From: a virus
Reading direction: 5' to 3' (one strand)
DNA length: 64,000 nucleotides
IMG/VR virus record: IMGVR_UViG_3300029319_000017
Span: 1-64,000 of that record
This document shows, piece after piece, positions 1,792-34,600 of this stretch; position 1 is the stretch's first letter, and every line of letters begins with the position of its first letter. The notes beneath the pieces were generated by a model. That model was not told where the DNA came from. It saw only the letters and a list, made by a program, of their open reading frames with translations, and searched no databases. The position numbers and the translations under genes are program-made.

Positions 1792-3684
1792 ATGATCTAT
1801 TATATTGGAAATAAAAGAGTCGTTGACGGCAAATGTTTTGAATACACAGACATGGAGTCAGCGGTTAAATACTTACAAGAACAGGCAATCTTGGGTGTAG
1901 ATACAGAAACAGAAGGTATGGACTTTACTTGTAAGAAAATGATAATGTTTCAAATTGGTGATGGTACAAATCAATATGTAATTGATACAAGATCAGAATC
2001 AATTGAGCCTTTACGAGATATATTAGAAAGCAAAAAAATCATAAAAATATTGCATAATGCTAAATTTGACTATAAATTCATCAAGAAATGGGCTAATATA
2101 GAGCTATCTGGTATTTATGATACATTTTTAGTAGAAAGAATAATACATTGTGGTAAAAAAGGTCAAAAATATGGGCTAAAAGACTTAGTTCTTAATTATC
2201 TAGAAGAAGAATTAGATAAAGAACCAAGAAATAAGTTCGTTAATCTACAAGGTGCACCGTATACAGATGTACAAATACAGTATGGTGCTAAAGATGTAGA
2301 ATATCTAATTAAACTAAGAGAGTTTCAGTTACCGCAAATAAAATCAAATAATTTAGAAGAGGTTCAAATACTAGAAAACGAAGCTGTATTGGCATTTGCT
2401 GATATAGAATATAATGGACTAGATTTGGATCAAAATGCATGGTTAAAACTAGACAGGGTAAATGCAGATAAAGCAAAAGAGTATTTTAATGACTTGGATA
2501 ATGCAGTGTTGCAAGATCCCAGACTCCAACCATTTGTACTTAAATATGTACAGGGTAATTTGTTTGAAAGTCAAGATACTTTGAGAAAAGTTGGTGTGAA
2601 TTGGGACTCGCCTATACAAGTATTAAAAGTTTTTAAGAAACTGATACCAGATCTTGAAAATGTTAATGGTAAAGAATTATATAAACATAGAAGATATGGC
2701 TTAGTTAGCAAATATATACGATACAAAGAATATATGAAACTTTGTACATCGTATGGTAAACCATTTTTTAAATACTTAAAAGGTGATGGTAAAATTCACA
2801 CTAACTTTAATCAAATATTAGATACTGGTCGTGTTAGTTCTAGTTATCCTAACATGCAACAAATTCCTGCTGATAACAGCTTTAGAAATTGTTTCATAGC
2901 TCCTGAAGGCTGGTCTTTTGTAAGTTCAGATTACACAAGTCAAGAATTGAATGTTATAGCCTTTGGTTCTAAAGATCCTGTTTGGATACAAGCATTAGAA
3001 GATGGACAAGATCTTCACAGTGTTTGTGCTGAACTAGTTTATAAGCAGAAATGGAGTGAGGCTGCTGAAGATGATTGCGCTTACGTTCGGGGGAAAGTTA
3101 AGTGTGAATGTCCTCAGCACCAAACTCTTAGAAACAATGTAAAAGCTATTAACTTTGGTTTGGCTTATGGTATGGGCCCACATAAACTAGCAGATACATT
3201 GCAAATAAGTAAAGATCAAGCTACAAAATTAATAGAAGAGTATTTTAAGGCTTTTCCTTCTATCAAAGGGTTCTTAGAAAGACTAGGTAACTTTGGTAAA
3301 CAATATGGATATATAAAAACTTTTCCACCTTTTAATAGAAAGAGATGGTTTAGTACATGGTATCCTAAAATTTGGAACAATAAGTCTTCTATGATGGAGA
3401 TTGGTAGTATTGAGCGTGCTTCTAAAAACACACCAATACAAGGTGCAAGTGCAGACATGACTAAACTAGCATTAATATATATTCACGAATACATAAAAGA
3501 GAATAATATTCCTGTTAAGATGGTAATGACTGTGCATGATCAGATTGATACTATATGTAATAATAGTTATACAAAAACATGGAAGAAGAAAATGACTGAA
3601 TTAATGGAAAAAGCTGCAAAAGTAGTAGTAACTAATGGCCTATTGAAAGCGGATACAAATATATCTAAAACATGGTCAAAATAA
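1792..3684 (+). CDS. Family A DNA polymerase with 3'-5' exonuclease
   Basis: This is the replicative phage DNA polymerase, 630 residues, compact for family A. The N-terminal proofreading exonuclease has DTET (D37, E39), NAKFD (89-93) and YGAKD (164-168). The polymerase domain has motif A SSDYTSQELN (D380), motif B RNNVKAINFGLAYG (R447, K451, Y459) and motif C TVHDQID (H582, D583). Motif C has Gln where HDE is usual, but the catalytic Asp is kept. A Cys/His cluster (C429, C438, C440, H443) lies between motifs A and B and may bind zinc. It works with the helicase, primase and SSB downstream. Confidence 0.93.
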   Translation: MIYYIGNKRVVDGKCFEYTDMESAVKYLQEQAILGVDTETEGMDFTCKKMIMFQIGDGTNQYVIDTRSESIEPLRDILESKKIIKILHNAKFDYKFIKKWANIELSGIYDTFLVERIIHCGKKGQKYGLKDLVLNYLEEELDKEPRNKFVNLQGAPYTDVQIQYGAKDVEYLIKLREFQLPQIKSNNLEEVQILENEAVLAFADIEYNGLDLDQNAWLKLDRVNADKAKEYFNDLDNAVLQDPRLQPFVLKYVQGNLFESQDTLRKVGVNWDSPIQVLKVFKKLIPDLENVNGKELYKHRRYGLVSKYIRYKEYMKLCTSYGKPFFKYLKGDGKIHTNFNQILDTGRVSSSYPNMQQIPADNSFRNCFIAPEGWSFVSSDYTSQELNVIAFGSKDPVWIQALEDGQDLHSVCAELVYKQKWSEAAEDDCAYVRGKVKCECPQHQTLRNNVKAINFGLAYGMGPHKLADTLQISKDQATKLIEEYFKAFPSIKGFLERLGNFGKQYGYIKTFPPFNRKRWFSTWYPKIWNNKSSMMEIGSIERASKNTPIQGASADMTKLALIYIHEYIKENNIPVKMVMTVHDQIDTICNNSYTKTWKKKMTELMEKAAKVVVTNGLLKADTNISKTWSK

Positions 3685-4395: not shown

Positions 4396-5581
4396 AACAA
4401 TGAGTAACTGTATAGAAATAAAAGATAAAGAACAGAAAAAAGCACTAAATGCGTGGGCTAAAGCTGGGTTTAAAGGGTCTGTAATTGCAGGTACTGGTTT
4501 TGGTAAGTCTCGTGTTGGTGTACTAGCCGTGGGTGAAACCTTAAGGAGAAACGAAGCGGCTAGAGGTATAGTTTTGGTACCTACAATACAATTGCAAGAA
4601 CAGTTTGAAGAAGAGTTTCACAAATGGAAGTATGATGATGTTCTAGATCGCGTTGATATTGTTTGTTATCAGTCTGCTTATAAATTACAAGAACAGTTTT
4701 ATAATATTGTAGTAGCAGATGAGATACATCTAGGCTTAAGTACAGAGCACTACAAATTCTTTGAGAACAATACATACGACAGATTACTGTGTATGACAGC
4801 AACTCAACCAGAAGAATTAGAATACAAAGCAAAGTTAATAACCCTTGCGCCTGTAGTTTATGAGTTAAGTTTAGATGAATGTGTAGGACTAGGACTAGTA
4901 TCTCCTTATGAGATCTACTGTGTGCCTGTAGAGCTAACAGCTGAAGAAGCTGCAGACTACAAAAAAGCAAATAACATGTTTGTTCACTATAAATATAAGT
5001 TAGGACAATTTGATGCTTTTAATGAGGCCAAAAGAATTATAGCTAGTAGTAGCGCACCTGGACATGAAAAACAATGGGCTGTGCTATTTTACAGAGCTAT
5101 AAGACAGCGTAAAGCTATAGTAGATTTTGCAATTAATAAAATTACTGCTATACAAAAGATAGTTCTTACTAATGTAAACAAAAGAATATTAACATTTTCT
5201 GGTGCTAATGATTTTACAGATCAAATCTGTGATGCATTGTCACCTCTTGCATTATCTTATCATTCTAAGAAAACTAAAAAGCAAAAAGAAGAAGCTTTGA
5301 GTTCATTTAGAAATAAAAAAGTCAATGTTTTGTGCTCTACAAAAGCATTAAACCAAGGCTTTGATGTACCTGATGCAGATTATGGTATTATATCTGGTTT
5401 GACTAGTAAGTCTTTGACTATGATCCAGCGTGTAGGACGTTTACTACGTTTTCAAGAAGAAAAAGTGGGTAAAATTGTTGTATTATATATAAAAGATACA
5501 CAGGAAGAGAAGTGGTTAAAGTCTGCAGTAAAAGGTCTAACTAATGTCAAATGGATTGACAAAATAAATGAAATAAATTAG
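4382..5581 (+). CDS. Superfamily 2 DNA/RNA helicase
   Basis: A 399-residue SF2 helicase of the compact UvsW/Ssl2-like type. Motif I is GTGFGKS (37-43), motif II is DEIH (113-116), motif III is MTAT (138-141), and motif VI is QRVGRLLR near residue 348. The second RecA domain contains SGANDFTDQICDAL and STKALNQGFDVPDAD. It probably remodels recombination or replication intermediates and branched DNA. MSNCIEI, six codons on, is an alternative start that would remove the overlap with the preceding gene. Confidence 0.88.
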   Translation: MKIIKTMSNCIEIKDKEQKKALNAWAKAGFKGSVIAGTGFGKSRVGVLAVGETLRRNEAARGIVLVPTIQLQEQFEEEFHKWKYDDVLDRVDIVCYQSAYKLQEQFYNIVVADEIHLGLSTEHYKFFENNTYDRLLCMTATQPEELEYKAKLITLAPVVYELSLDECVGLGLVSPYEIYCVPVELTAEEAADYKKANNMFVHYKYKLGQFDAFNEAKRIIASSSAPGHEKQWAVLFYRAIRQRKAIVDFAINKITAIQKIVLTNVNKRILTFSGANDFTDQICDALSPLALSYHSKKTKKQKEEALSSFRNKKVNVLCSTKALNQGFDVPDADYGIISGLTSKSLTMIQRVGRLLRFQEEKVGKIVVLYIKDTQEEKWLKSAVKGLTNVKWIDKINEIN

Positions 5582-5582
5582 G

Positions 5583-6122
5583 ATGAAATTAGAAATTGAT
5601 TTATCTTTACTAAAGGATATAGGCTTAAGTCCAAACGAATATATATTTCTCTATTGTGTGCATAGAAAAGCATACAATTATTTTAATAGCGAGTACCATC
5701 CAGTACAATTACAAGATAACGGATGGATTGTTTACGGTGAAGACGTTACTAAACACGTTATACAACAAAAATTTAGAGATCTATTCGTTAGTGACACAGA
5801 TGCTATGTTTGCAGAACTGTGTGCTGCATACCCTTTTAAAGTAGAATCCCCCACTCGTGGTGCACGGGTTCTACATGCAAAGGATCCAAAAGCAGCTAGC
5901 AACAAAAAAGCTAGAAATAAATATAAAAAGATTGTAGGTAACAAACCACATTTGCATAGACATATTATGCAATGTTTACAGTTACAACTTTCGCATGAGA
6001 AAGATAACTTGGGTTACCTACAAAACTTTGAAACTTGGATTAATAATCATACTTGGGAAAAGTATGAAGGTATGAACATAAAAGACATTAACGATGACAG
6101 AAGAATCACAAGACAGCTCTAG
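5583..6122 (+). CDS. Replication initiator or helicase-loader candidate, 179 aa
   Basis: The N-terminal part (LSLLKDIGLSPNEYIFLY) resembles the winged-helix start of phage replication proteins. The C-terminal NLGYLQNFETWINNHTWEKY matches the pattern of helicase-loader and replisome-organiser proteins (a Leu/Asn-rich stretch, then TWINxxxWE). The middle is basic (KKARNKYKKI). Its end overlaps the DnaB-like helicase gene by 29 bases, fitting a loader translated together with its helicase. The assignment rests on pattern and context, not a catalytic motif. Confidence 0.5.
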   Translation: MKLEIDLSLLKDIGLSPNEYIFLYCVHRKAYNYFNSEYHPVQLQDNGWIVYGEDVTKHVIQQKFRDLFVSDTDAMFAELCAAYPFKVESPTRGARVLHAKDPKAASNKKARNKYKKIVGNKPHLHRHIMQCLQLQLSHEKDNLGYLQNFETWINNHTWEKYEGMNIKDINDDRRITRQL

Positions 6123-9068: not shown

Positions 9069-9836
9069 ATGGCTATAACAAGCAACAATTCAGATCAAGA
9101 AGTTATGGGTGGCATTAAAAGCTACTCAGGATTATCAAACTTCAACGTAATAGCAGTAAACCCTACAATGCAGGAGTTACATGCTATGGATATTAAAGTA
9201 AGACAAGAACCTAATTATTTCTTAGAACTAAATGGTGAAGATTACTTTAAGCTAACGTTTTGGGTTAAGAATGAAGATCTAACAACTAGAATGGAAATCT
9301 TAATGCAAAACAAAGCTAGAACTAGTAAAACTGGTAAGTTTCAATGGTTAAATGCAGTAGGTCAGTCTACATGGGCAGAAGACAAGCCTGATTACGACTG
9401 GTGGCAAAAGCCAGAAACATCAAGAAAAGCTTTTGGTGGTGAAGAAACTTTAATTAACTTTGTCAAAGCATGGGCTAACGTAGCGCCAGGCGGTGATGTA
9501 TACTTTGAGACTATTGACAAGATAGTACAAGGTGACATTTCAGAGCTTAAACAGTTGATTACAGTTCTAAAAAACAATCAAGTTCGTTTACTAGTGGGTG
9601 TTAAAGATGGCAAATATCAACAAGTGTATACTAAGGTATTTGGTAGAATTAAACCACAAAGAGACGACCTATTTGTTAAGTCACTAAATGATGAGTATGG
9701 ATCATTTAACGCAGAATTTGCTACTGACCTTAAATGGGGTGAGTTTAAACCTGAGTTAGCTGTTGTATCTCCTGACCCTAGTGGTGTAGAAGATCTTCCG
9801 TTCTCTTCTAGTGATGAAGACAAAGATTGGGTATAA
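9069..9836 (+). CDS. Single-stranded DNA-binding protein candidate
   Basis: The 255-residue protein has a beta-rich body (GLSNFNVIAVNPTMQELHAM, YFKLTFWVKNE) and ends in an acidic, Phe-containing tail, EDLPFSSSDEDKDWV. Such tails are typical of single-stranded DNA-binding proteins and recruit other replication proteins. The body includes aromatic residues (FQWLNAVGQSTW) suited to base stacking. Its place after the Sak4-like gene supports an SSB role, since annealing proteins are commonly encoded beside their SSB. Confidence 0.65.
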   Translation: MAITSNNSDQEVMGGIKSYSGLSNFNVIAVNPTMQELHAMDIKVRQEPNYFLELNGEDYFKLTFWVKNEDLTTRMEILMQNKARTSKTGKFQWLNAVGQSTWAEDKPDYDWWQKPETSRKAFGGEETLINFVKAWANVAPGGDVYFETIDKIVQGDISELKQLITVLKNNQVRLLVGVKDGKYQQVYTKVFGRIKPQRDDLFVKSLNDEYGSFNAEFATDLKWGEFKPELAVVSPDPSGVEDLPFSSSDEDKDWV

Positions 9837-9842
9837 ATAACT

Positions 9843-9913
9843 AAGAAAGTGTATAATTATTTTGGTGCTAAGGATTGAATCAGAATAGCCCGCGGGCAGT
9901 TATACACTTTCTT
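9843..9913 (+). repeat. Inverted repeat 1: 14-bp perfect stem with internal GC palindrome
   Basis: AAGAAAGTGTATAA (9843-9856) pairs perfectly with TTATACACTTTCTT (9900-9913) around a 43-base loop. The loop holds GCCCGCGGGC (9888-9897), a GC-only palindrome that stands out in this AT-rich genome. The gap 9837-10020 has no convincing ORF. The element may be a structured RNA, a terminator for the SSB gene (TT and C follow) or part of a replication origin beside the primase. No known ribozyme or riboswitch was recognised. Confidence 0.7.
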
Positions 9914-9920
9914 TTCAATG

Positions 9921-10000
9921 ACTATACAAGTGAGGTTGTAATATTATATTAACATCCTGTTATACTTTGTGAAACTTGTTACGTTCCTCACTTGTATAGT
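9921..10000 (+). repeat. Inverted repeat 2: 15-bp perfect stem before the primase
   Basis: ACTATACAAGTGAGG (9921-9935) pairs perfectly with CCTCACTTGTATAGT (9986-10000) around a 50-base loop. TTTTATTT follows, so it could terminate transcription. It lies seven bases after inverted repeat 1 and 20 bases before the primase start, and its sequence is unrelated to repeat 1. The loop contains TTATACTTTG, only a weak match to a Bacteroidota -7 box. Terminator, structured leader and origin hairpin are all possible. Confidence 0.65.
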
Positions 10001-10020
10001 TTTATTTAACACACATTGAT

Positions 10021-11016
10021 ATGATAACATCGAGACCAAGTAATGATATATTACACACAGAAACAATACTGGAAAAAATAACAGAATTTGATATATTTAA
10101 ATATTATTGTCCTGTATTTACAAAGCTTAGTAAAAAGTTTTGTAGTGAACTTAGACAAGACAAACGCCCTTCAGCATCTATAGTTGCATATAACGGTAAT
10201 TTGTTATATAAAGACTTTGGGTATCCTGATCATACGTTTAATTGTTTTGGATATGTTCAATATAAGTACGGACTTACATTTACTGATGCGTTAATTCAGA
10301 TTAGTAATGACTTTAATTTAAGGCTGGCTACTACTAATGGAATAGTGCGGTCCAAGCCTCCTAAACTGTACGGAAATCAAATAATAGACCAAAAAGTTAC
10401 TATTATTAAGATAAAAAGTAGAGATTGGGACATAAATGATGCTAATTTCTGGAAACCCTTTCATATAAGTAAAAAAATTTTGCGTAACTTTGCAGTTAAG
10501 CCTATCTCATATTATTGGATAAATGAAAATAGATTCAAAGCTAAAACTCCTACTTATGCTTTTAGGTTTAACACTAAAATTAAAATTTACGCTCCTTATG
10601 AAACAGAAAACAAATGGTTTAGTAACACTAATAAAGAAATCGTTCAAGGCTATGATCAACTTCCTAGTGAAGGTAATGTGCTATGTATTACATCTTCCCT
10701 TAAAGATGTTATGTGCCTTTTCGCTATGCGCGTGCACTCCATCGCAATGCAGAGTGAGATGCAGTTGCCAAATGGGATGCTCATGCAAGTACTTAGACAA
10801 AGATTCAAAAAAATAGTGATACTATACGATAACGACAAACCTGGACAAACAATGGCTAATAAAATATGTAATGAATATCAATTAGATAATCTATGTATTC
10901 CAAGAGATTGGGGTGCAAAAGACATATCTGATGCCATTGTTGTTCATGGTTTTAGTAAGGTGAAACAATTTATATATGAGAAGATACAAACGCAAAAAGG
11001 GAAAAATCCAGAGTAA
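10021..11016 (+). CDS. DnaG-type primase with TOPRIM domain
   Basis: The N-terminal half (FDIFKYYCPVF, FCSELRQDKRPSASI, LLYKDFGYPDHTFNCFGY) resembles the DnaG zinc-binding domain but without a clear CHC2 cysteine set. The TOPRIM part has VLCITSSLKDVMCLF and then VILYDNDKPGQ with the D270-x-D272 pair that binds metal. The usual first TOPRIM Glu is replaced by the ITSSLKD block, while an AMQSE block supplies another acidic residue. It should make primers for the polymerase. 331 residues; it follows two strong inverted repeats. Confidence 0.75.
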   Translation: MITSRPSNDILHTETILEKITEFDIFKYYCPVFTKLSKKFCSELRQDKRPSASIVAYNGNLLYKDFGYPDHTFNCFGYVQYKYGLTFTDALIQISNDFNLRLATTNGIVRSKPPKLYGNQIIDQKVTIIKIKSRDWDINDANFWKPFHISKKILRNFAVKPISYYWINENRFKAKTPTYAFRFNTKIKIYAPYETENKWFSNTNKEIVQGYDQLPSEGNVLCITSSLKDVMCLFAMRVHSIAMQSEMQLPNGMLMQVLRQRFKKIVILYDNDKPGQTMANKICNEYQLDNLCIPRDWGAKDISDAIVVHGFSKVKQFIYEKIQTQKGKNPE

Positions 11017-15768: not shown

Positions 15769-15775
15769 TGTTAAT

Positions 15776-15791
15776 GGGGCCTTCGGGCCCC
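15776..15791 (+). terminator. GGGGCC-TTCG-GGCCCC hairpin after rIIB
   Basis: GGGGCC (15776-15781) and GGCCCC (15786-15791) form a 6-bp GC-only stem closed by a TTCG tetraloop. The element is very stable against the AT-rich background and stops transcription or protects the 3' end of the rIIB message. Only two T follow, so termination may be incomplete, letting transcription continue into the exonuclease gene at 15806. Confidence 0.6.
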
Positions 15792-15805
15792 TTAAATTTA
15801 TAAAT

Positions 15806-20600: not shown

Positions 20601-22665
20601 TGTTTGTATCTTTTATTCCTATACCAGCAGTTACAGTACTAATTCTTTGTGCAACATTATCAATCAAACTTACCACATCTCCTTTCACCACTAACTCTTG
20701 CATAGCATCTTCTAAGACTTCTATCCTAGCTTGAATCTTTGCAAAGTCTCTTCTTTTTGTTCTTACGTTTCTTTGTTGTGTTTTAAGCCTTTTAATTTGA
20801 TTGTCTAATCTATTTACTAATTTATCTAATTCTTTGTGATCTGTTTTTTCTAATGCAACAGCTATAGATCTTAAGTACTCTTTATTTGTATGCGCCATTT
20901 CAAATTTAGTCAAAGTAGTCGTAAGTTCTCCTTTTACATTTTTAGCATACTCTACATGTATTGGTACGATTCTTGTTCTATTAAACTTTTCAACTCCATG
21001 TACTTCTTTTAACATATTTATGTAAGTACCTATTTGTGTGTTGTAACTATCCATTTTAGATCTAAATGGGTTTCTAACAATTTTACCTTTTCTATCTTTA
21101 AAATAAAACCCAGGTGATAGAGTTTTCCAATCAAGTAGGTCCATACTGCCGTCTGAATATACAACAGCTACGTCCATAGTTCCAGCTACGCCTTCTAATC
21201 CCGCTAATATTTTATGTGGATTTACAATTTTTAATTCTGTAATTAAATTAGCTTTTCCTTTTCCTATTTTTTCTTGTTGTATTTCTATCTGTTTAATGTG
21301 GTTTCTTACACCTTTTTTAAATATTTCAAAATGCACTTTGTTTAGTCCTGCATCTTTTCTAATTTGTTCTAACGTTTTTTTACCTCTTCCATCAGGATCT
21401 ACTACATTAATCATATTACTTTTACTTCCATAAAAATCCATTAACTCTTGTGCAGCATTGTGTATTCTAACACCATTTTCTCTTAAATGTTTACTTTTTG
21501 CAGATTTAGTAATTTCTAAAGCTTTTTCTTTACCTTTAGTTCTAATAAAATCTCTAGTACTTTGATCTGTAACACGATTACTAATTATATACTCTTTACC
21601 ATCTTTTGTAAACTTATATCTTTTTAGCTTTTTACCATCGCTAAACTCTTCTATAACTTCTAGACTTTTAGGCAGTTTTCCATCATCTTCTTGTATCCAC
21701 TCTTTCATAACTAAAGCTTCATGGTCATCTAATAAACTTTGTGTTAGTTTTTCTTGTGGATCTTCTGTTTGCTCAGGCTCTGCTTGTAGCATTTCTGCAT
21801 CTGTAATATTATCTACAGCATCCAGATATGCATTTTTACTTTCAGACAGCATGTTTTCTGCAGCTGCTAAAAAGGGACTGTTTTCTCCTCCAAAAAATCT
21901 TTTAATTGCATTTAATACTTTTTGAAACCATCTACCAAATCTAGATACATTTTGTTTAGTTTCTGCAGGTGAGTATACATTTATAACTTCAGCAGCTATT
22001 AGTTTTCCTATTGCTTCATCACGTATTTTATCTTCATTTACAGTACCATCTTCGTTTTGATATAATGGGTTAGAAGAATACTCTTCAGAAACTGTGTTGT
22101 ACATGTCGTATTTATCTACGCTGTTGTACATAGATCTATACAAAGGACTATCTTTTGCTTTTAATAGCTCAACAAATAAATGTGATGCTTCTTCGGGTAA
22201 AGTCATTTTATCTGCTTTACCTCTAACAACTTGTACAGTTTTTAATAAGGTGTCTATTTTAGCTCTACCAGTTATAGGATTGCCAGCACGGTCTGTAAGA
22301 TTATTAACAACATCTATACTAAAACCATAGTTATTTAAAAAGTCAGCCATTCTACTATCTAACTCTTTATTTGCTTCTACAAAGGTAGGATCCTCTAATG
22401 CAGCTTTATATATGTCGATAGCAGGCTTAGGAACACTCTCTATTAAATCTTCTACACTTTCTATGTAGGGTTCCCCGTTGTTATCTAAAACGTCCTTAAA
22501 ATCTTCTTTAAATGATTTTGTTTGTGTTTTTAACCAAATCTTGTGTGCATCTTCTTTACTACCTATTTTATCTACTAAGTCATTAAATAAGTTAGAAGGG
22601 TTTCCATTATCTGCAAACACCTGTGATACAGTACCGTCTATATTTTTTATTACATTACAAGCCAT
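17665..22665 (-). CDS. 1,666-aa crAss-like giant protein with PD-(D/E)XK nuclease motif
   Basis: This very large protein is the last late gene and is coupled to the RNA polymerase gene by a TAATG junction. Residues 498-514 (GTMDVAVV with D498, then LLDWKT with D512, K514) match the catalytic core of RecB/Cas4-type PD-(D/E)XK nucleases. Residues 156-162 read LPEEASH, resembling a degenerate zincin (E-E-x-x-H). Long charged coiled-coil stretches follow, and the C-terminal third has hydrophobic, glycine-rich segments (GMYLAAMAMGMGVG). It is probably packaged with or processed from the virion cargo; the nuclease may act on host DNA or during entry. Confidence 0.65.
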   Translation of the reverse strand: MACNVIKNIDGTVSQVFADNGNPSNLFNDLVDKIGSKEDAHKIWLKTQTKSFKEDFKDVLDNNGEPYIESVEDLIESVPKPAIDIYKAALEDPTFVEANKELDSRMADFLNNYGFSIDVVNNLTDRAGNPITGRAKIDTLLKTVQVVRGKADKMTLPEEASHLFVELLKAKDSPLYRSMYNSVDKYDMYNTVSEEYSSNPLYQNEDGTVNEDKIRDEAIGKLIAAEVINVYSPAETKQNVSRFGRWFQKVLNAIKRFFGGENSPFLAAAENMLSESKNAYLDAVDNITDAEMLQAEPEQTEDPQEKLTQSLLDDHEALVMKEWIQEDDGKLPKSLEVIEEFSDGKKLKRYKFTKDGKEYIISNRVTDQSTRDFIRTKGKEKALEITKSAKSKHLRENGVRIHNAAQELMDFYGSKSNMINVVDPDGRGKKTLEQIRKDAGLNKVHFEIFKKGVRNHIKQIEIQQEKIGKGKANLITELKIVNPHKILAGLEGVAGTMDVAVVYSDGSMDLLDWKTLSPGFYFKDRKGKIVRNPFRSKMDSYNTQIGTYINMLKEVHGVEKFNRTRIVPIHVEYAKNVKGELTTTLTKFEMAHTNKEYLRSIAVALEKTDHKELDKLVNRLDNQIKRLKTQQRNVRTKRRDFAKIQARIEVLEDAMQELVVKGDVVSLIDNVAQRISTVTAGIGIKDTNSADYLTDEDLRAIYEDFTMFQNITDNTVKFLDEMIEKSKDKEKARAYRDAFNDASTIVDNNLKRVRNEWLSRVTEVAHRDGHDLSETPKTQGFLTRNFTTMDVYPHPAFRAAYKKINDSFNKTKVITDALNDEIQDITFGKEINGKRDGGLNKWAKDNGMTLKEAFRDILIQDTKDKEGKVIYRNLVPMFSKEFRDTIKSKQEKNDIIWMKQNFKIKEGARKKFNLMRKNAVERESYLFPEDNQIGIRKANMKAWDQKFNVFDPLYDKAWLNPYWSMFLEPKNPAEHYSEKYKTIAKNKPVLDYYNTYRRINAELGDKANIKMSPNFIANIKDDIMESLLNNGMSIKGLEEMMDSISRSFMLKAEQEEGGVFTDDGFIDKIPLPYVNELINTKGDVDAGLKSIDLSKSLYLLATSIYNHKHMGEIESYIMGLKEMIIEKGEAVTKNGVLQYQGSEIRRQNASPELLANYDRFIKFYLYGQRIQGDDTIIGGISKIKTIKTLQSLYSMKVLGLAFVPGMAARITGGVNMFLNGIDGVHYTNKHLNVARKNYAMNNKEWHAFVNYVDPFQAGLTWRKAKDLSMKAANKVLDLDNWYFPLRSPDENIDGMITVAMAQNHGIDKEGVLQRLVDLPQGTPSLWDSFTKNHKEGSLMINGMTQQSYNDFRLRVKAVARKIKGEMSDENIYTFNTSLTGQVMMQFKSWMPGLLESRFGSTQYNDVLKVLEEGRFRGFFKTATGADSVAHGKMLLKEEAGLVKMLQNILLRGADGVTYLTFLRKYITDPAKKAKLEKEGKWTDAMQRKYDSRVKRLEAEFERFKRNSTDPRIKNIPLKEFLRMRERSVTRTLAEVRALIGMYLAAMAMGMGVGPDDEKWKNKTYLNRKTYMLLARTRMELGFTLNPMEFAAFTRGLVPLTGLLTDSYKVVTNGWTESLEMLGVIAENPRDKTPLFYHTLKFVPGWSQLRRVFEIYDQDKINPYVTR

Positions 22666-25600
22666 TATTTACATGTTGTTTTTTTATCTATTTCTATCTG
22701 CTCAGAAATTTCTTTTGCATTTAGTCTAATATTTGTTTTTGTATCAGCTATTGCTTTAGTTCCTTTTATAGTTACATTTCTTCTTTTTCTTAACTGTCGT
22801 AAGATTATACCGTGTCTCATTCTATCTTCAGGATTCATGTCATTTACAAAGTTTTTGCCTGGCACGCCTATCTCTAAAGACAGATCTTGATTTATTTTGT
22901 CAAGCCTAACTTGCTCTTGCATTAATATTTCTGTAGCTATCCTTCCCGATCCTGGTAAAAGTTTTGTTTTAAATTTTCTTACACCATTCTCAATTTGATT
23001 TTTAATATCTCTTCTTAACTGCTCTTCTACAATTAACTCTCCTTCTTTATCCATATAATACTCTGGGTTCTGTGCTTCTATTGTTACAGCTTTATTGTAA
23101 TCATTTTCAAGCGTGCTGTCATTGCTTTTATCTACACCAACAATTTCATACACACTCATTTTTTGATTTTTGCTTGTATCTAACCAAGAAGATGGTATTT
23201 TGTTTTTACCTGATTTAATTTTAGGTAGCATTTTGTCCCAACTAGTATAGCCTTCATTTCTTGCAAAGTTATCTAATTCTTCTGCAGTATCCAAACCTTT
23301 ATACATTATTTCATCTACTAGCTTTACGTATACTTTTATATTACCAGGCAGTGTGTATATCTTACCGCTTTTTAATTTACCTGTAGGTACAGTCAATGTT
23401 TTTGCATTACCTTTTTTAATTTGCATTTCTTCAAATTTATTAAGAGTTATATCCAAAGGTGTTATTATTTGTTTGCTGAATACATCTTTTGCTTGATCGT
23501 ATTTTAAATTGTTTTTATCCAGTATAGATTTTTGATTAGGATCTGTAGGATACTCTTTTAAATTTAATCCGTTACCTAATCTATCAACAGGTTCGTATTG
23601 AGTATATGCACTTTCTACACTTTGACTTAGAGATTTTTTAAATAATAATAATGTTTTAGGAACAGGCAGCCCTTTCTTTTTTAGTTCGTCTGCTTCTTTA
23701 CTTTCTACAGCATCCATAGATATACCTACGTAAGGAAACTTACTTGTAGGATCTGAGTTTTTAATACTAGGATATACTGCGTTATCTTTAATTTTATATT
23801 TGCTTCTAGGTAATCTTGGTACAATTTTAGAATTATGCCAATTGTTTCTAAAGAAATTATCAAAAAAGTTTACAACATCTGTATTACTAGGATCTAATTT
23901 AGATACGATTCTAACAGCTCTTTCTGTAAACTTCTCTGTAGGTAATATGTGTAAGTAACTCATGTTGTTTAAAGACATACCCGATTGTAGTATTGCATGG
24001 TCTATTAACATGTTTTGATCAGTTTCTGGTAACTCTAAGAATGCGTCTCTTAAACTATTAGCTTCATAGTTATTAAGAATTCTAGAGTATAGTTTTATAT
24101 TGTCTGTTCCTCTTAGTGGTCCTGTACGTACTTTTTCTACAGATGGTAACAACGACTGTAAGAAAGGATTATTAGGATATAATTTTTGTAGTTCTGTTAC
24201 TCTTTTTGCTGCTGATCTTTCTCCTAAGAATAATTGTTCTGCTTTGTTACCCAGTTTTACACCATCAAAATTTTCTGCTAGCAATGCTGCAACTATCAGT
24301 TCATTTTCTGCTTCATTTAGTACAGTCAATCTAGCAGCTTCGCTTAGAGGTAATCTAGGATCGGAAAATATATCAAAGATTGCATCTAATTGTCCTACAG
24401 CTCTTGGTCCCGCACGCTCTGTTAAGAACATACTATTAAATTGTTTAGATGCTGCTTCGTGTGTAAGATAGAATTCATTTAAATGTGTACGTTGTATTAG
24501 GTTATCTATATTTCCAAATACATTTCTATGTTTTATGTCATCAAATTTATTTAGTAGAAGTTTTGCATGATTTCTACTTTTTGGTATTGCTGTATCAAAA
24601 GATGTTGCTAGTGTTAATCCTGTTAGCTCTCCACCTACTGCATCATACAATACAAAATCTTCTAATACTTGTAGCTGATCTTCTCCTAACCCTTGTTCTA
24701 TTATTTCTGTTCTAGTTTTAGTAGACATTTCTTTTAAATTTTCAGCACTAAATAACTTAGGTGTTCTTCTTGATCCTTTTTTAGTAGGGGCATAATATCC
24801 TAATACAGCGTTAAATATTGTAGCTTTAGATTGTGGATTATTTTTAACCATGTTTATCTTACTACTGTTTGCATTTAAACGACTAATGTATTCTTTTATA
24901 ATAGGCTGGTTAATAAAAAAGACTGCCTCTCTAACAGGAACGCCTGATCTTAATAAGAACATTAATGCATTCCCAACTTCAGGAACAAGGTTTAAGTCAG
25001 CTACAATAGGGTCCTCTGATGCATCTGCAAAAACATTTAAAAGTTCAGATGCAATTTCAGTTATTCTGTGCTCTCCTTTTATATCATATATTCTGTCTAA
25101 TCTTATTGCACTTCCTGTTAACCCACTAAAACCTTCTATGTTTATTCCTATATTAGAAAATTCTTTTACACCTTCAATTGTAACGTTTGGTCTTAGGTAT
25201 AGCCCTGCTTGCTGCGATTTTACTATGTGTGTTGCATTTGTAGCTGCTATACCTAAACCATTTTTTCCTGATTGGAAATCTTTTGTGATATTAAAAATAT
25301 GTGGATAAGAGATTAGTTCTGCATCGCTAACCTGTCTTTCTGCTATTCCTAGTTCAGATCTTATATCTAGTATAACTCTTGTACCAATAGGATTAAGTAA
25401 TTGTGTATAAGATCTAGGAGTAGATAATATTTTTGTTTTTAAATCTATCATCCTGTTTTGCACTGCACCCATATGGTTTAGTTCTACAGGATTTTTACCT
25501 TTGTTTTCTATAAAGAATTCATCTAAAGAAGGTATTTTATTTGCTTTCTTTTCTAATTTTTTAAATTCTGCTACAACATCTTCTACACGATCTGCACGAT

Positions 25601-28600
25601 CTTTATCTGGATTGTTTGCAAGTTTTTTAAACCTACTAAATAATACTTCTATTTCTGCATCAGAGTAGTCGTATAGTTGATCGCCTGCTACATTAGGATT
25701 GTCTCTAAATATAGCTAACAATAAATTTTCTACTGCAGCCTCTGTACTTCCCATTTCTTGTGCTCTAGCATTAACTAGATCTTTACTAAACTTGTCCCAA
25801 AATCTATTAAACGGTCCATACAATGCATCATAGTATTGTTTTATACCTTCTTTGGTATTTGTATCCGCATTTATAAATTCTCTTTTAGTTATTTTACCAT
25901 CTTTTACTGTGTAAGAAGGCATGTATAATGTTAATTTATCAATATCAAAGTCAGACCCTGCTTTAACTACTAACTCAGAAGGGACCATAACTTGTGCACC
26001 AGACTGTGGTGGTAAGAATCCTTTTATAGTCATAAAGTCAATAGAGTGTAAACCGTCCGTTGGGATACGAAATCCTATTAGTTGTAATAAATTAGAGTCT
26101 CCTACTTTTTGTCCCCTTTGATTGTATACACCATCTGGTCTAACCTGTAATCCTTCTCCTAAAAACTCTTTAAAATAATGTGGTAGGTATACTTCCATAC
26201 CAAGTGTTTCTGAGTTTGGATTATTAGGATCTTTCTTACGATAAAACTTTAATCCGTTTCTTCCTGAAGATTCTACTTTGCCTTGTCTTACAATTCTAAC
26301 AGTGTTTTCTGATCCTAAAGAAGATACTTGTACTGCATTTTCACCTTTTACTTTTTGTGTAATAGAGTTGTTTCCTACCAGTGAAAACAATAGGTTTTCT
26401 AATCTACCTTTGTTTACTATAATATCAAACACTTTCTTGTCCCCGTCAGGCTGATTTAGTAGAGACTCTATACCTGCTGCTACGTTTTCTGGATAGTTTC
26501 GTTTAGCTATTTCATCACGAATCATATCTGCAAACTTTTGGATATTACCTCCTGTTAATTTGTAACTAACTTCGCCTTTACTATCAACTACTTTTTCTAA
26601 ATTAAATCTTTTAAGTAAATTTTCTCTACTTCTTCGTGTAATCTCATTAACTGCATCTAAATAGTCTGATGCATCTTTGTGTACAGAAGAAGCTTTTTTC
26701 TTCTGTTCTGGTGTCATCTTTTCCCAAGAAGCAATGTCTCCTGTATAGTCTGCAGGCATACCCCCTTCGTATAAATTTGCAAGTATGTGAGTTCTAGACT
26801 GCGTACCTAATGTAACTTTACCTTTAAACTCTTTATTAATATCTACTTGTATCCCAAAATAAGATAAGTCTATTACCGTGTGTAAGTCTGAGTCTATAGG
26901 ATTTATAGTACCGTCTTCATTATAAAACTGTGGTGCGTTACCTGTAACAAGATCTACTCTACTACCTATCTTAGCAGCTGTAGGATGCATAACCATGTCT
27001 GTACCAGACTCATACATATCTTTTAATAATCCTTTTAGCGCAGTGTCTTGACCATTTATTCTAGTCATCTGTGGAAATATAGGAGTTAAAGATAGCTTTA
27101 ACCCTACCATTTGTTTTAACTCAGATATTGCAGGTCCAAAACCTTGTGGCTTTAATGTTGGAAATGCTGTTAGTTCTTCTTTTGTAAGCTCTTTTCCTAA
27201 CATTGACTTTCTAAACAAATTTTCTTGTTGTTCTGTCCAGTCTCCAATTCTCATCATAAGCTCTCTATAAAAATGTATATTAGCAAATGCATTTGCATCA
27301 GCTTCTTCTATGTTTCTATACAAATTAGATATATCTTCTCCTAAATACTCTGCATATTCTCTCCAATAAACACTTTCTGATACAGGATCTGCATAGATCA
27401 TTATATTAGCTTGCCCGTTATAACTCTTATTATGCTCTCCATAGTTTTCTTTTACTTCTTCACTAACTTCAGGCTCATTATTGTTTAACCAAGAATTCAT
27501 ACGATCATCTACTCTAGGAAACTTTTTTGTACCAGATGCTAGTTTAGTTCTTTTGTATAAATCTTTGTATTGTGCTACATCACCAAAGAAAAGTTTTAAT
27601 TGTTCTACATTACCTATAAAGTTTTGTAATGCAAATGCACTAGCTATTGCATCTACCTGATTAGCAGTTAGTTGCTTACCCACTTTGTCTCCTGTAATAT
27701 TACTAACAGTTTGTGTATCAAGCCCATTATTTAAGAACGTATTGCCTTTACCTTTAGTAAGTATTCTTGTTTGCAGCATTAATTTTTTATTTTTACTTGC
27801 CTCTTCGTTTAAGTAATTAATTATTGCTGATTGTATTACAGATTTATTTTTACCCATAAACTCATTAATAGGCATGTGGCCTTGTAATACATTAGTTAAG
27901 TCTATCATTTCACTTGGCTGCAGTCTAGACTCTACTATTTGTTTAAATACACGTAATCCTCCTCCTTTTCTATTATAGTCTTTTATATCTTTTCCTAATC
28001 CTTTTGTATTAAAGTTTACTGCCGTGGTAAGTTCATCTACAAAATACCCTAATAACTGTTCTCTTACATCTACAGGATCAGTAAACTGTTCTATAGGAAA
28101 TCTAACACCATATTCTGTTTTAGCATCAGCTGTTCTTAGTATTGGTATTACACCATTAAGTACAGAGTTTATGTACATAGCAGCTCTATCTTCATATGTC
28201 AAATGTGATGTGTGTAAACCTTGATCTCCAGCTCTATCTATTCTTAATCCTTCTATAACATGCATTTCTATTTTTGCATTAGGATCTGCACTTATAGCTT
28301 TTAATACTAAAGAGTTTGCTACATATGGATTGTTTTTAAAGTGTTCTGGTAATATGCCTGAGTTTAGTTTGTTAGATATTAAACTCATATATGTATTTAA
28401 TGTAATACCATACACAGGTTTACCTTCAGCATTAAAGTGTTTAAGCTCTACAGCCTTGTCGTTAAACAGCATTTCTACTTTTAATAAATTACCAAGTCTT
28501 GTTTGTGCATCTATTGTTTCTCTAGAAAATAGATCTGCGCCTAAAGTATTATCTGGTTTATTTAATTCTGACAATACCCAGCTTGCAGAGTCTCTTAATA

Positions 28601-31600
28601 TTTGTTTTATAGTTTTACCATCTATAGTTTTATCAAGATTATTTAGTATTGCAGCTCTGTCTGCAAACTCAAATCCAAAGTTTTCAAATAATTCTAATAC
28701 TGTATTAGGATCATCTAATACAAGAGATCTTAAAACTCCAGTTTGATTTATTTGTTTTAAACTTTTATTACGTATTTTACCTATTTTAGGTTTGTAATCT
28801 AAATTAATTTTTAACTCACCGTCTTGTACACTAACAAGTAATCTACCATCAACATCTTTTACATTAGAGTTCTTTAAATTATTTCTCCAAGGAGTTATAA
28901 TAATATTTTTTAATTGATTTGCATTAGGGTCTACAGAATAAAAGTTTCCTTCAGTATCTAATACAAAAGAATCAAATGTATTTTTAGTTTTATTCATTTG
29001 CTGTGCAAACATATTACTAAGTTTCATTTGATCAAATGAGCTGTTGTCATCTAGTTCTCCTAATCTTTTTACTAATGGTTTAATCCAAACATGCTTATCA
29101 GATAATTGTTTTAATTTTTCAATTTGTTTATTAGGATCTGTAATACCTGATAACCTATCTTGTATAAAGTTCATAGCATAGTTAGAGTCTACAATACCAG
29201 TTGTCCCAGTAATATTTATTGTAGTTTCATTAGCTAATGTTCCTAATAACAATTTTATATAAGGATGTGAGTTGCCTGTTGCAGAAAACTGCATAGACTC
29301 TAATATATTAAATGGGTCACTTTGTCCATTCTTTAAGTTTTCTTCTTTTTCTACCTTTAACGATGTGTCTATACCTATGGACAATAAAAATTGTCTGTGT
29401 ACTTCTTGAAAAGATTTTATGTTACCGTCTCTTGTAGTTTTAACTCTACCTCCATTTAAGAATAATCTTGCTTTAGCAGCTCTTTGTGCAAGCAAGTTGT
29501 ATTTATCTTTTAAAGCTGTATCATTTGTATTAGAAGCCAGATCTGTATAAATTTTTATTTTGCTTCCTAGCTCATCATACATTCTACTAAATGCAGTTTT
29601 GTATATTTTAACTAGTTTATTGTTGTACTCATCGTATCTATTAGGATTAGACAACATTTCTAATTCACTTAGTGTTAGTTTTAGATTAGGATCATCAAAC
29701 ATAGTTTTACCAAAGTGCTTAGTAAATGTGCTCATCATGTCCATAGAAAATCTAGCGCTTGTAACATTACCATCATTTTCTAATAATGCCATGTTAACTT
29801 CTTCTACATTTCTTGTTTCAGTAGGAGCTTTTATATCAGCAAACTCTCCAGCTTTTATCTTATTAAATATTGTTGCAACAGTCTGCATGTTAGGATCTAC
29901 TTGTAGTTGTGCATCTAATCCAAACATTGCTCTAAAAAAGTTTCTAAGTCTGTCAAACAATCTAGCAAAGAATCCTTTTGGCTTACTGTACACGTCTTTT
30001 TTATAAGTTTCGTTACTTAGTATCCACTTTCTAAACTCTTCTGCTAAATACTCTTCTGCTTGCTTATCTGTTGCATTAGAAAACTTAACCATCTTTCCCT
30101 TGTAGTCTTTAAAAGATCCTTTGTTATTTCTAACTTCATCGTACATTTGTTTTCTTGTTTTGTCATTTAACAAGAAATAAGAAACCTGGTGAAAGCCTTC
30201 ATGATATGTAGTACCACCTACAGCTAATTCAGATACTACAGTTCTACCAAATCCTTTAACTTGACCTATAACATTAGGTGTTTTACTTTTTATAAACCCT
30301 GCAACAAACTCTACTTTATTCCAAGGTAACATTTTATTTATTGTATCTATTTCTTCTTGTGTAACGCCTTTAGACTCTTCTACGGCAAGATCAAGAATTT
30401 GTTCTCCAGAGTATACTTGCTCTACAACTAGGTTTATTTCTTCGTCATCAAACAACTCATCTTTTTTCTCTTCATTTGCTTTATCTATTTCATCTTGTAT
30501 ACTATTATCTTCTGCAGGACTGCCTAAAACATCTGAAACCTCTTTATCTTCTTGGACAGGTATATCACTAAAATCTTGTACAGGAGGTCCTGTTATAGCT
30601 TCTTCTGCTTTTTTAATGTTCTTTTCATTTTGCTCTATTCTTTTTTCTACTTCGTTTTCTACTTCAGTTTGATTTTCTTTTACTTCTTGTTCTGTAGTTC
30701 CTTGTACAATAGCAGCATTATTTTCTTCAGTTCTACCTTTAAATTTATTAAATGCAAAGTCTCTAAAAGAGTTTGCTCTAGAAGTATTTTTATATTCTTC
30801 TAAATACTCTAACAACTGGTCTATGTACTCTTGATCAGATATATTTTTTGGGTCTCCATTATAAAGCATAAAACCTTCAGCATTATCAAGGTTAGCAGCA
30901 TACTTAGAATCTACAGCCTGTTTAAATCCTTCCATTATTTCTACTTCTATAGGTCTACCTGCTTTAGCATCGTTGAGCATTTTTTCATATCTTTTTATCT
31001 CTTGCTTTTGTATATCTGTATAGACTACATTTTCAGGTGCTTGTGGGTCAGCTTCTCCTTGATATACTCTACCAGATCTTGAATCTCTACCAGGTATATC
31101 AAACTTTAAATATCTAAATTTATACTGTGGTGTAATATAACTTAGGTTATTCATTAAAGGTAAGTTTGTTTGTAATGGAGGTGCAAACGCAGCATCCTCT
31201 CTAGCTTCTAGCAAGTATTGCTCGTAATTATCCCATTTAAATCTTACACTGTCATCTAATTCAAATGTATTAACTCCTGTTTCTTTATAGAACGGCATGT
31301 AGAAAGGAGTCGTAGATGAAGGCTTACCGTTTTTATTTCTTAGACTTTTTATATTAACGTTTACTAATTTGTTTAATAAAAAGTCATTTAGTTTAGATGT
31401 GTTATTATCTAGTATATCTTGATAACTTATAAACTGATCACCCATTTGATATCCTTTACCTGTATCAAAAAAGTCTACTCTTGTTACCCCGTCTTCTGCT
31501 AGCTGGCCTTCAGTTCCAGATCCATAGTAAAGCATGTCTTTTAACTTTTGAAATACAAATACTTTTTTACCATCTACATCTAATAGAGCAGCTTCTTGTC

Positions 31601-34600
31601 TAAGTTTTTTGTCGTCTTTTTTAGCATTAGCAGGATCTTCTTTAAGAGCTTCATATCTAGTTTGTACTATACGCAATAAGTTTATAACGTTTTGTGCTTC
31701 TTTTGGATTTAATGTTCTAAGATGTAAAGGCGCTAAATTACCTGCAGAAGTTACAGTAAATGCCATACCTGCAAATGGTACTCTATATGTTATACCTGAA
31801 GGTGTTGTTATCTCAGAGTATACTTTACCTCTGTCTTCTAAGTTTTTAGTAGTAAGTTGTATAACAACATCCTTTGTACCCTTTTTACCTCTAGAACCTA
31901 TTACTCTGCCCTTAATTGGGGACAATACTTTTTGACCATTAACTGTATTTATTACATTAGGAAGACCTGCACTCATACCTTTAATGTCTAAGAGTATAGG
32001 AGTTTTAGATTTTAATATTACATCTCTATCTGACTTATATTCATTTAATGCATTTTCTACATTTATACCAGCGCTGTTAGTAAATCTATTAACGTTATTT
32101 TTATCTTTTAAGGTAGCACCCATCATAGATGTATACACTATATAAGATTTTTCTCCTTGCTTAGGAGTATTACCCTTTGCATTTACTCTAACAGGTTTAC
32201 CTGTATTGTCTACTAAAACTAATTTAATGTCTGTAGTATTAGGATCTACATGGCTATAATCCATGAACTTACCTTGGTCGTTATTAAAAAATACACCTTT
32301 TAAATCTTTTTCTAGATCTTGGGGTATGTTGTTACTATGCACAGCCATTAGTTTGTTTTTCTTCATATTAACAAACTTAGATGTAGCTTGGAACCATATT
32401 AACTGATCTCTATATGCTCTAAATTGATTTTGTTCACCAAGAGTAAGATCTTCTCGCATTGTAGGCTCTTGGTTTTCATCTAAAATTATATTACCCTTAC
32501 CATCTACTATAGATAATTTTTTTAATGTATCCATAGCTGTTTTTTGATCCCCAGCTGTTTTATAAAATCCAGGTCCTGCAATGTCAGGTTTAAATAAAAA
32601 TGGATTATTTTTTGCCATGTCATCTGCTTGCATGTCGTAGTTTCTACCTGAAGGCGGAGGATTGTTAGGTTTGTTAGGAGATGTACTACTTGTGCTTGTA
32701 GGAGCTATTACTCTAGCTTCAATCTGAGCTAGTTTAGCAAGTATTTCATCTACAGCATTCATATACTCTATTGCATTAAGCATCATATCTAAGTTTATAA
32801 ATTGCTGATCTATATCACCGTCCTCCCTTTGTATTTTATACTCGCTTATAATACCGTTTAACTCATCTATCTCTTCGTTAGTGGCTTTTAAATGTTTTTC
32901 TAATAATCTAGATTCTGTAAATGTTTTTTCAACTTTATCTAGTTTTTCAAAAAACTGTTCTATATCTTGGAATATATCTGGATTATTTTTTCTAAATTGT
33001 TTAAACTGTCTATAAGTAGGTAAACCTTCTACACCTTCCATTTCCATGTCAAGCATATCTTGGTCCATACCTCTAAGCCTAGTTCCTTGTAGGTTATAGT
33101 TTTTAGCAGCAGTGCCTGTTATATAAGTAAGTTGCTGTCTTAGTTTATCTCCTTTAAACTCATAATTATCAGGTATTTGACCTGTTTCTTTCATTAGTGC
33201 TTCTCGTTGCTCTACCTGTTGTACATAGGCCTCTATTTCTCTAATAACTTCTTGGTATAAATCATCAAAGTTTTGTGCATTAGATTGATCTAAACCGCTG
33301 TTTTTAAGCTCTCTAATACGATCAAATATCATTTTTTCTAAAACATCTTTATGACCTTTTAGCTCATCTAATTTTAGATTTATAAGTTCAATATTTTTGT
33401 TTGTAGTTCCTGCCCATTCATTTATAGAAGTCTTAAGATCATTTGCTATTTCTGCAACAGCATCTCTATCTTCTCTAGTAGTAATAATTGGAGCATTTCT
33501 AATTTTTTGAGCTTCTTCTCTTAGTAATTCTTGCTCAAGTTGTAAAGCTTCTAAATTACTATTTCTAATATCACTGTCTTCTTCTCTATTAAGAACATCT
33601 ATTTGTTCTTGTAATCTAAATAATTCATTGTCTATTTCTCCAAGCCTTTCAAATCTATCTATTTGGTCTATAGGTATTCCCTGCTCTATTGCTCCAAGTA
33701 TAAGCGCTTCGTTTTCAGCTGCATATCTTTCAGTAAATTGACCTTGTTTATTTACATTAAACGATTTATTTAAATCTACACTAAACTCTCTTGTTTTAGG
33801 ATTGTAGTGTAATGATACAAGTTCTTCTAGATAATCTATTTGATCTAGTATCATTTTTTGTTCTTTCCTTAGTTCTTCTATAAGGGCTTCTCCAGTATTT
33901 ATCTGATCTTCAAGTTTTGCAAGAGCTTCTGTTACCTTTTTAACATTTATAAACTTGCCTTTGTTTCTACCAGTTTTAACTTGATTCTCTAAACCCGACT
34001 CTTCTATTTCTATCATTAAATCTAGAATTTCTTTTTCTAGTTCTCCAATGTCTTTAGCAAGTTTTTCTACCCTAGTTCCCTTTTCTCTTTTTAATTCATC
34101 AATAGCATCTAATAATTTTTTAGCTCTAGCCTGTTTATCAGTGACTATATTTTCATCTCTACCTCCTAAGTTTTTAAGTATAGAAGAATCTACTACATTA
34201 GTTGTACCTTCTTCTAATAAATTACCGCTAGAGTCAAACCTATACCATTTATCACCTACTCTAAATTTAGCTTTAGTTCCAAATTCTTCAAACAGTTTTT
34301 GTGCTTCAGGATCATCTATATTATTTTTTGCAGTTTCACTTTCTACATCATCAACATATTTTTCTATTTCTTGTACAATCCTTAAACTTGTTTTATCTGG
34401 ATTAGATCTTGCCATGTTATAGTCAGCAATAAATTGCTGTCTTCTAGCTCTTACATGCTTTAAATCTTTAAATAATTGTACAATTTGTTCTATTTTATCT
34501 GCAGCTTTAGGATCTGTATTTATTAAATCTTTAAGTTGTGCTTCTAAAAATGCACGTAATGCTTGATCTTCTTTCATATCTAAAAATAGAGTAGCATCTC

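Follow-up and report, generated by a model that had tools for sequence, protein, structure and literature searches.

A conserved hairpin motif, a candidate structured RNA, between replication genes of crAss-like and other phages

The window, the 64-kb stretch of DNA analyzed here, comes from a virus record of 87,892 bases. Plus-strand genes run through the record end to 17.6 kb, and minus-strand genes occupy 17.6 to 82.4 kb. The site of interest lies among genes for PolA, helicases, a Sak4-like protein, an SSB-like ORF, a primase, a resolvase, RIIA/RIIB, and an exonuclease. It is the gap between an upstream ORF (9069–9836, 255 aa) and a downstream ORF (10021–11016), which a sequence-only reading had called an SSB-like gene and a primase gene. 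The second of these calls stands: the downstream gene encodes a DnaG-like primase (phrog_12622, E 1.7e-39). The 255-aa protein has no PHROG match, and we infer its SSB-like label from its position and its acidic EDLPF tail.

Homologues of the primase occur in 97 records, mostly Crassvirales. The window also encodes a 4786-aa protein (22665–37025, minus strand) with DFDID near residue 3692. This protein has no Pfam match; its DFDID region matches gp66 of phi14:2, the catalytic RNA-polymerase subunit (E 2.2e-13), and the sequence match is confined to the catalytic region. Because the primase matches Crassvirales and the polymerase region matches phi14:2, the window is, judged by its sequence, derived from a crAss-like phage. 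ARAGORN found no tRNA or tmRNA in the window or in the rest of the 88-kb record. Elsewhere in the window, the gap before the PolA cluster (1420–1581) contains TATATTTG, which resembles a Bacteroidetes −7 box; in the same gap, a strong hairpin that looks like a terminator, GTAGGGTGACA...TGTCACCC, immediately precedes the ORF at 1582. Locus L174 (7290–7459, reoriented) has a similar layout.

Two long perfect stems occupy the gap before the primase. The first (9843–9856 paired with 9900–9913) has 14 bp and a 43-nt loop, the second (9921–9935 paired with 9986–10000) has 15 bp and a 50-nt loop, and the spacer between the two hairpins is seven bases (9914–9920). The sequence-only reading had described both stems and a palindrome in the first loop; the stems are borne out, and the palindrome is present as GCCCGCGGGC at 9888–9897. 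These two are among just three perfect stems of ≥12 bp with loops ≤100 nt in the 64-kb window. Stems of ≥14 bp number three in the window, compared with a mean of 0.06 per shuffle and never three in 100 dinucleotide shuffles. The 241-nt region has a folding energy of −63.6 kcal/mol; shuffles average −45.0 (z = −4.3), and all 200 of them fold less well. The two stems are separate modules, A (the first) and B (the second), with the following features:

9837–10020, plus strand: intergenic gap with two structured modules, bounded by the SSB-like and primase ORFs
9843–9856, plus strand: module A outer stem, 5′ arm, 14 bp, perfect
9868–9880, plus strand: module A inner hairpin loop CTAAGGATTGAAT, an exact match to the inner part of element C in L085
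9888–9897, plus strand: GCCCGCGGGC palindrome, predicted to fold as a small hairpin; positional counterpart of ACCTGCRGGT in element C
9900–9913, plus strand: module A outer stem, 3′ arm
9921–9935, plus strand: motif B P1 (variable outer stem), 5′ arm; model R1 match at 9925–9997
9938–9943, plus strand: motif B P2, 5′ strand, GTAATA
9950–9953, plus strand: motif B P3, 5′ strand, TAAC
9959–9971, plus strand: motif B P3, 3′ strand, and conserved GTTATACTTTGTG; TATACTTTG invariant in 55 sequences
9977–9982, plus strand: motif B P2, 3′ strand, TGTTAC
9986–10000, plus strand: motif B P1, 3′ arm
10000–10007, plus strand: T-rich run TTTTTATT after P1, terminator-like by sequence

We retrieved 80 related loci via the primase (L numbers are our locus handles). 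Outside the closest clade, most relatives have a gap of −1 to 12 bp before the primase, and some carry plain terminators; within that clade the gap is 79–298 bp and contains large hairpins. The closest lineage (L001 and L002) shares the gap of the window except for two changes; through one of them, an A-T pair of the second stem becomes G-T. Persistence in close relatives, a check proposed with the sequence-only reading, came out differently for the two stems: L003, a 79% identical relative, keeps the second hairpin at 92.6% identity and lacks the first. Third codon positions of the SSB gene differ by 28% between the window and L003, against 92.6% identity in the element. The "twin" arrangement is therefore not conserved, and elsewhere the second hairpin occurs alone or with other partners. 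L010 has the same B core within a different outer stem; the core precedes a large element, C, in L085 and L162 and follows it in L010, L081, and L104.

Apart from the window, module A is known from just two near-identical contigs. A scan for it returned L001/L002 and the inner part of element C but no further member whose outer stem is long. The 13 bases CTAAGGATTGAAT are common to module A and the inner part of element C in L085, followed in both by AGC and a GC-rich small hairpin. Module A is lineage-specific and weakly tied to element C; it may be related, in reduced form, to the inner part of that element, thin as the likeness is. We also considered mimicry of a CRISPR repeat by module A, since GGATTGAAT looks like repeat ends, and gave the idea up for want of evidence. 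In a hairpin of element C, GTC/GAC is exchanged for GAC/GTC between phages.

The second hairpin (9921–10000) represents a motif, B, that is conserved in both sequence and structure. An outer stem of arbitrary sequence (P1) surrounds a fixed core made up of P2 (GTAAT/ATTAC), a 5-bp P3, and the invariant TATACTTTG on the 3′ side, with a UU(A)/NNUU internal loop and an apical loop of 4–8 nt. Some members have an additional hairpin between P2 and P3. In a 42-member alignment, 94% of cells are paired, and there are 90 double changes compared with 27.5 in shuffles. All eight modeled pairs of P1 covary. P2 has few double changes in this alignment, and since P2 and most of P3 hardly vary beyond the P3 closing pair, the pairing of both rests on few changes. 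The closing pair of P3, a position left free by our second search, is CG in 40 sequences, UG in 13, UA in two, and CA in none; such a series, from which C-A is missing, favors folding of the coding (sense) strand of the neighboring genes. In P1 alone the wobble bias is weak (GT 12, AC 5), and the bias is partly phylogenetic. We identified no function-specific feature in the core. A MITE-like mobile element with terminal repeats was also considered for motif B and rejected: the "repeat," P1, differs wholly between members, and the core is conserved.

We find motif B in about 100 IMG/VR stretches. The core pattern TAACN{3,8}GTTATACTTTGTGN{2,9}TTAC matches 70 stretches, nearly all with the full architecture, and a second pattern with P3 unconstrained matches 76, giving 34 new loci. 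An exact 18-mer scan gave 21 matches, most of them chance matches in coding sequence, and few carry the hairpin. Run against 257 Gb of bacterial and archaeal genomes, the first core pattern has six coding or chance matches, none with the architecture. Model R1 has a sole match in the window (9925–9997, 57.7 bits, E 2.4e-11), which is not independent, as a near-identical copy is in the training alignment. The model found no credible copy in phi14:2 and five other named crAss-like genomes, and a cultured-phage search with the motif B consensus also gave no credible match. Rfam 15 has no matches at the family gathering cut-off in the window and none in 19 related loci; at E ≤ 5 the 281-bp region gives only chance snoRNA matches. 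The motif is apparently undescribed: the literature searched, which takes in only a minority of subscription papers, contains no description of it.

Strong R1 copies number zero or one per record, never two, among 75 virus records, most of them incomplete, which weakens the single-copy count. R1 matches missed by the first pattern (L015/16/18, G006, G019, and G027) are likewise single-copy. The junctions that hold motif B are SSB/primase, resolvase/small ORF, RIIB/exonuclease, the position after PolA, and sites beside Erf-like, SSB, and NinG genes. Both neighbors are co-directional, with motif B on the sense strand, in 20 out of 20 assessable new cases and in nearly all earlier ones. The next start codon usually lies 30–55 nt downstream, at a fairly constant distance.

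Among the records that carry motif B, many of which are fragments picked for containing it, 20 of the 25 tested have no crAss primase match, and a match to the polymerase region is absent in 16, including records of 61–66 kb. In B-carrying contigs of 35–66 kb we found homologues of neither the crAss primase nor the polymerase catalytic region, so the motif crosses phage groups and has spread between them. From these records, fragmentary as many are, motif B seems independent of the virion polymerase.

This bears on the three candidates offered by the sequence-only reading: a single-strand initiation origin, a structured regulatory RNA, and a phage polymerase promoter element. Under the last, the hairpins would be promoters for the virion RNA polymerase, as in phage N4, or a host promoter with TATACTTTG as its −7 box would be nested in a terminator loop. 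The Bacteroidetes −7 promoter consensus is TAnnTTTG; TATACTTTG is invariant and near this consensus, and the window phage has the 4786-aa DFDID protein with its match to phi14:2 gp66. However, the spacing in TATACTTTG is one base off the consensus, no −33 box is kept, the optional inserted hairpin alters the spacing, there is one motif B copy per genome, and a duplex promoter would not be expected to show covariation along an outer stem of 8 bp. The single-stranded promoters used by the N4 virion RNA polymerase and those of M13 and the F plasmid are likewise hairpins beside replication genes, and the window phage has a virion RNA polymerase. In contrast, motif B is larger and multi-part and lies on the sense strand, and its long outer stem, internal loop, and 4- to 8-nt apical loop are unlike the known N4 promoter hairpins. 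Because this architecture differs from N4 and because the motif occurs in 35–66 kb contigs, possibly incomplete, with no polymerase homologue found, the virion-polymerase promoter is disfavored. We regard a promoter of either kind as very improbable.

Another possibility is that motif B would fold as single-stranded DNA on a displaced strand, acting as a single-strand initiation site or as a recognition site in replication or recombination. Its single copy, its neighbors (SSB-like, primase, resolvase, Erf, exonuclease, and PolA genes), and its absence from the bacterial genomes searched are consistent with this, although the early gene cluster consists mostly of replication genes anyway. Against it, motif B always lies on the coding strand beside co-directional genes, and it often ends like a terminator. 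Nor does the position fit: the GC skew, which had been proposed as a check, shows no switch at 9.9 kb, the switch being near 82.4–82.9 kb of the 87.9-kb record. At the GC-skew minimum lies a 493-bp divergent intergenic region (record 82416–82908, L173), which is more likely the replication origin than the 9.9-kb site. A single-stranded DNA site seems to us an improbable explanation of the motif.

Two long-loop stems had also been judged more than a single terminator needs, and rightly: the core of the second hairpin is conserved and covarying and is found once per genome in many phages. A scan with an intrinsic-terminator consensus (loop of 3–8, GC-rich stem, and direct T-run) has no match at 9700–10200; a long-loop terminator is possible because T-rich sequence follows P1. 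Motif B might then be a cis-acting, factor-controlled terminator or 3′-end element, in which P1 and the T-run would end upstream transcription and the core would dock a factor deciding between stop and read-through. Many members have a purine-rich 5′ arm, a pyrimidine-rich 3′ arm, and a T-run, the next start codon is near and at a fairly constant distance, and plain intrinsic terminators take the same junctions in relatives (SSB/primase in L023, L025, L030, and L073; after RIIB in the window itself, at 15769–15805). On the other hand, there is no T-run in L098, L085/L162, L107/L124, L105/L115/L163, and L180; each genome has one motif B copy although several terminators exist; and both the upstream and the downstream genes change. 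We consider a terminator of this kind rather unlikely.

The same junctions also hold other structured domains. Depending on the phage, the nearly constant flanks of the resolvase/small-ORF junction enclose either motif B or structured domains wholly different from it. The SSB/primase junction contains A+B, B, C+B, B+C+D, D+E, D+F, a small three-way structure, or plain terminators; scans for elements D and I found just a few members each. In full-length loci, the post-resolvase gap (about locus 5560–5770) holds many unrelated structured domains between the flanks ATAGGTTAGAGGGG...CCCCTCTTTCCTTTTTT, as seen in L017, L028, L033, L034, L040/L049/L051/L059, L052/L068, L066, and L070. It is as if these terminator loops were slots for exchangeable RNA domains. 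Three structured elements, B, C, and D, stand in a row in L085 (10780–11179) and L162 (about 2600–3000, reverse strand). Element D contains AGTAAG, and a hairpin loop downstream has its complement, CTTACT, so that a pseudoknot is possible.

There is a precedent for RNA genes at this site: the gut crAss phage cr131_1 has a tRNA-Leu gene in its SSB/primase gap. The same gap in L236 (1757–1973, cr273_1) and L237 (1698–1946, cr1_1) has tRNA-like T-arm and acceptor sequences (GGGTTCGATTCCC...GAGCCACA; GGCGGTTCGAGTCCGCC), without an ARAGORN tRNA call. In L232 (4031–4500, phi14:2), ARAGORN predicts a tmRNA, which may be false, where the original gene calls were removed. The tRNA and tRNA-like genes of cr131_1 and other gut crAss-like phages resemble motif B in junction, sense strand, and embedding in a replication operon; neither module, however, has tRNA features. 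Intrinsic terminators of the same phages share with many motif B members a GC-rich stem and T-run at the same junctions, whereas motif B has a conserved domain of ∼50 nt in its loop, sometimes lacks the T-run, and is single-copy. The closest described parallel is STAXI, a structured motif near genes for SSB and other DNA-handling proteins for which RNA and single-stranded DNA were both left open (Weinberg et al. 2010, PMC2864571). Motif B also adjoins SSB and DNA-handling genes, but STAXI forms a pseudoknot, repeated in tandem and often with UUCG loops (PMC2864571), and motif B forms one hairpin, made up of a variable outer stem, P2/P3, and TATACTTTG, in one copy per record.

Among the three original candidates, a structured RNA is thus the best supported, by the sense strand, the sense-compatible wobbles, and the frequent terminator-like ending. 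With moderate confidence, we read motif B as a stand-alone structured phage RNA, non-coding and trans-acting; each functional step that follows we infer from comparison of sequences. The motif would ride in the polycistronic replication transcript, frequently within the stem of a terminator, as a small structured RNA, cut out of the transcript or ended within it, and P1, often followed by a T-run, would give it a stable, closed 3′ end. Single copy, changing neighbors, sense orientation, and occurrence in unrelated phages suggest that the core itself is what is kept. The core would be the functional part, probably bound by a host or phage protein or by another RNA. Since the neighbors change while the copy number stays at one, motif B would act in trans rather than regulate one particular gene; a role in cis is possible, with the next start codon usually so close. 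Module A would be a second, lineage-specific RNA module stacked beside B in the same intergenic site.

We tentatively put forward, as a possibility, a broader view in which phage lineages share exchangeable structured RNA modules, motif B and at least several others, in terminator-like stem loops between replication genes. Motif B would then be a trans-acting, single-copy accessory, moved horizontally and serving, for example, against host defense or to take over a host RNA-binding machine. To our knowledge, descriptions of non-coding RNAs from crAss-like phages are few. That unrelated phage groups share a single-copy, covarying motif points to a specific molecular task, and junctions with interchanging structured domains offer a defined place to seek further phage RNAs.
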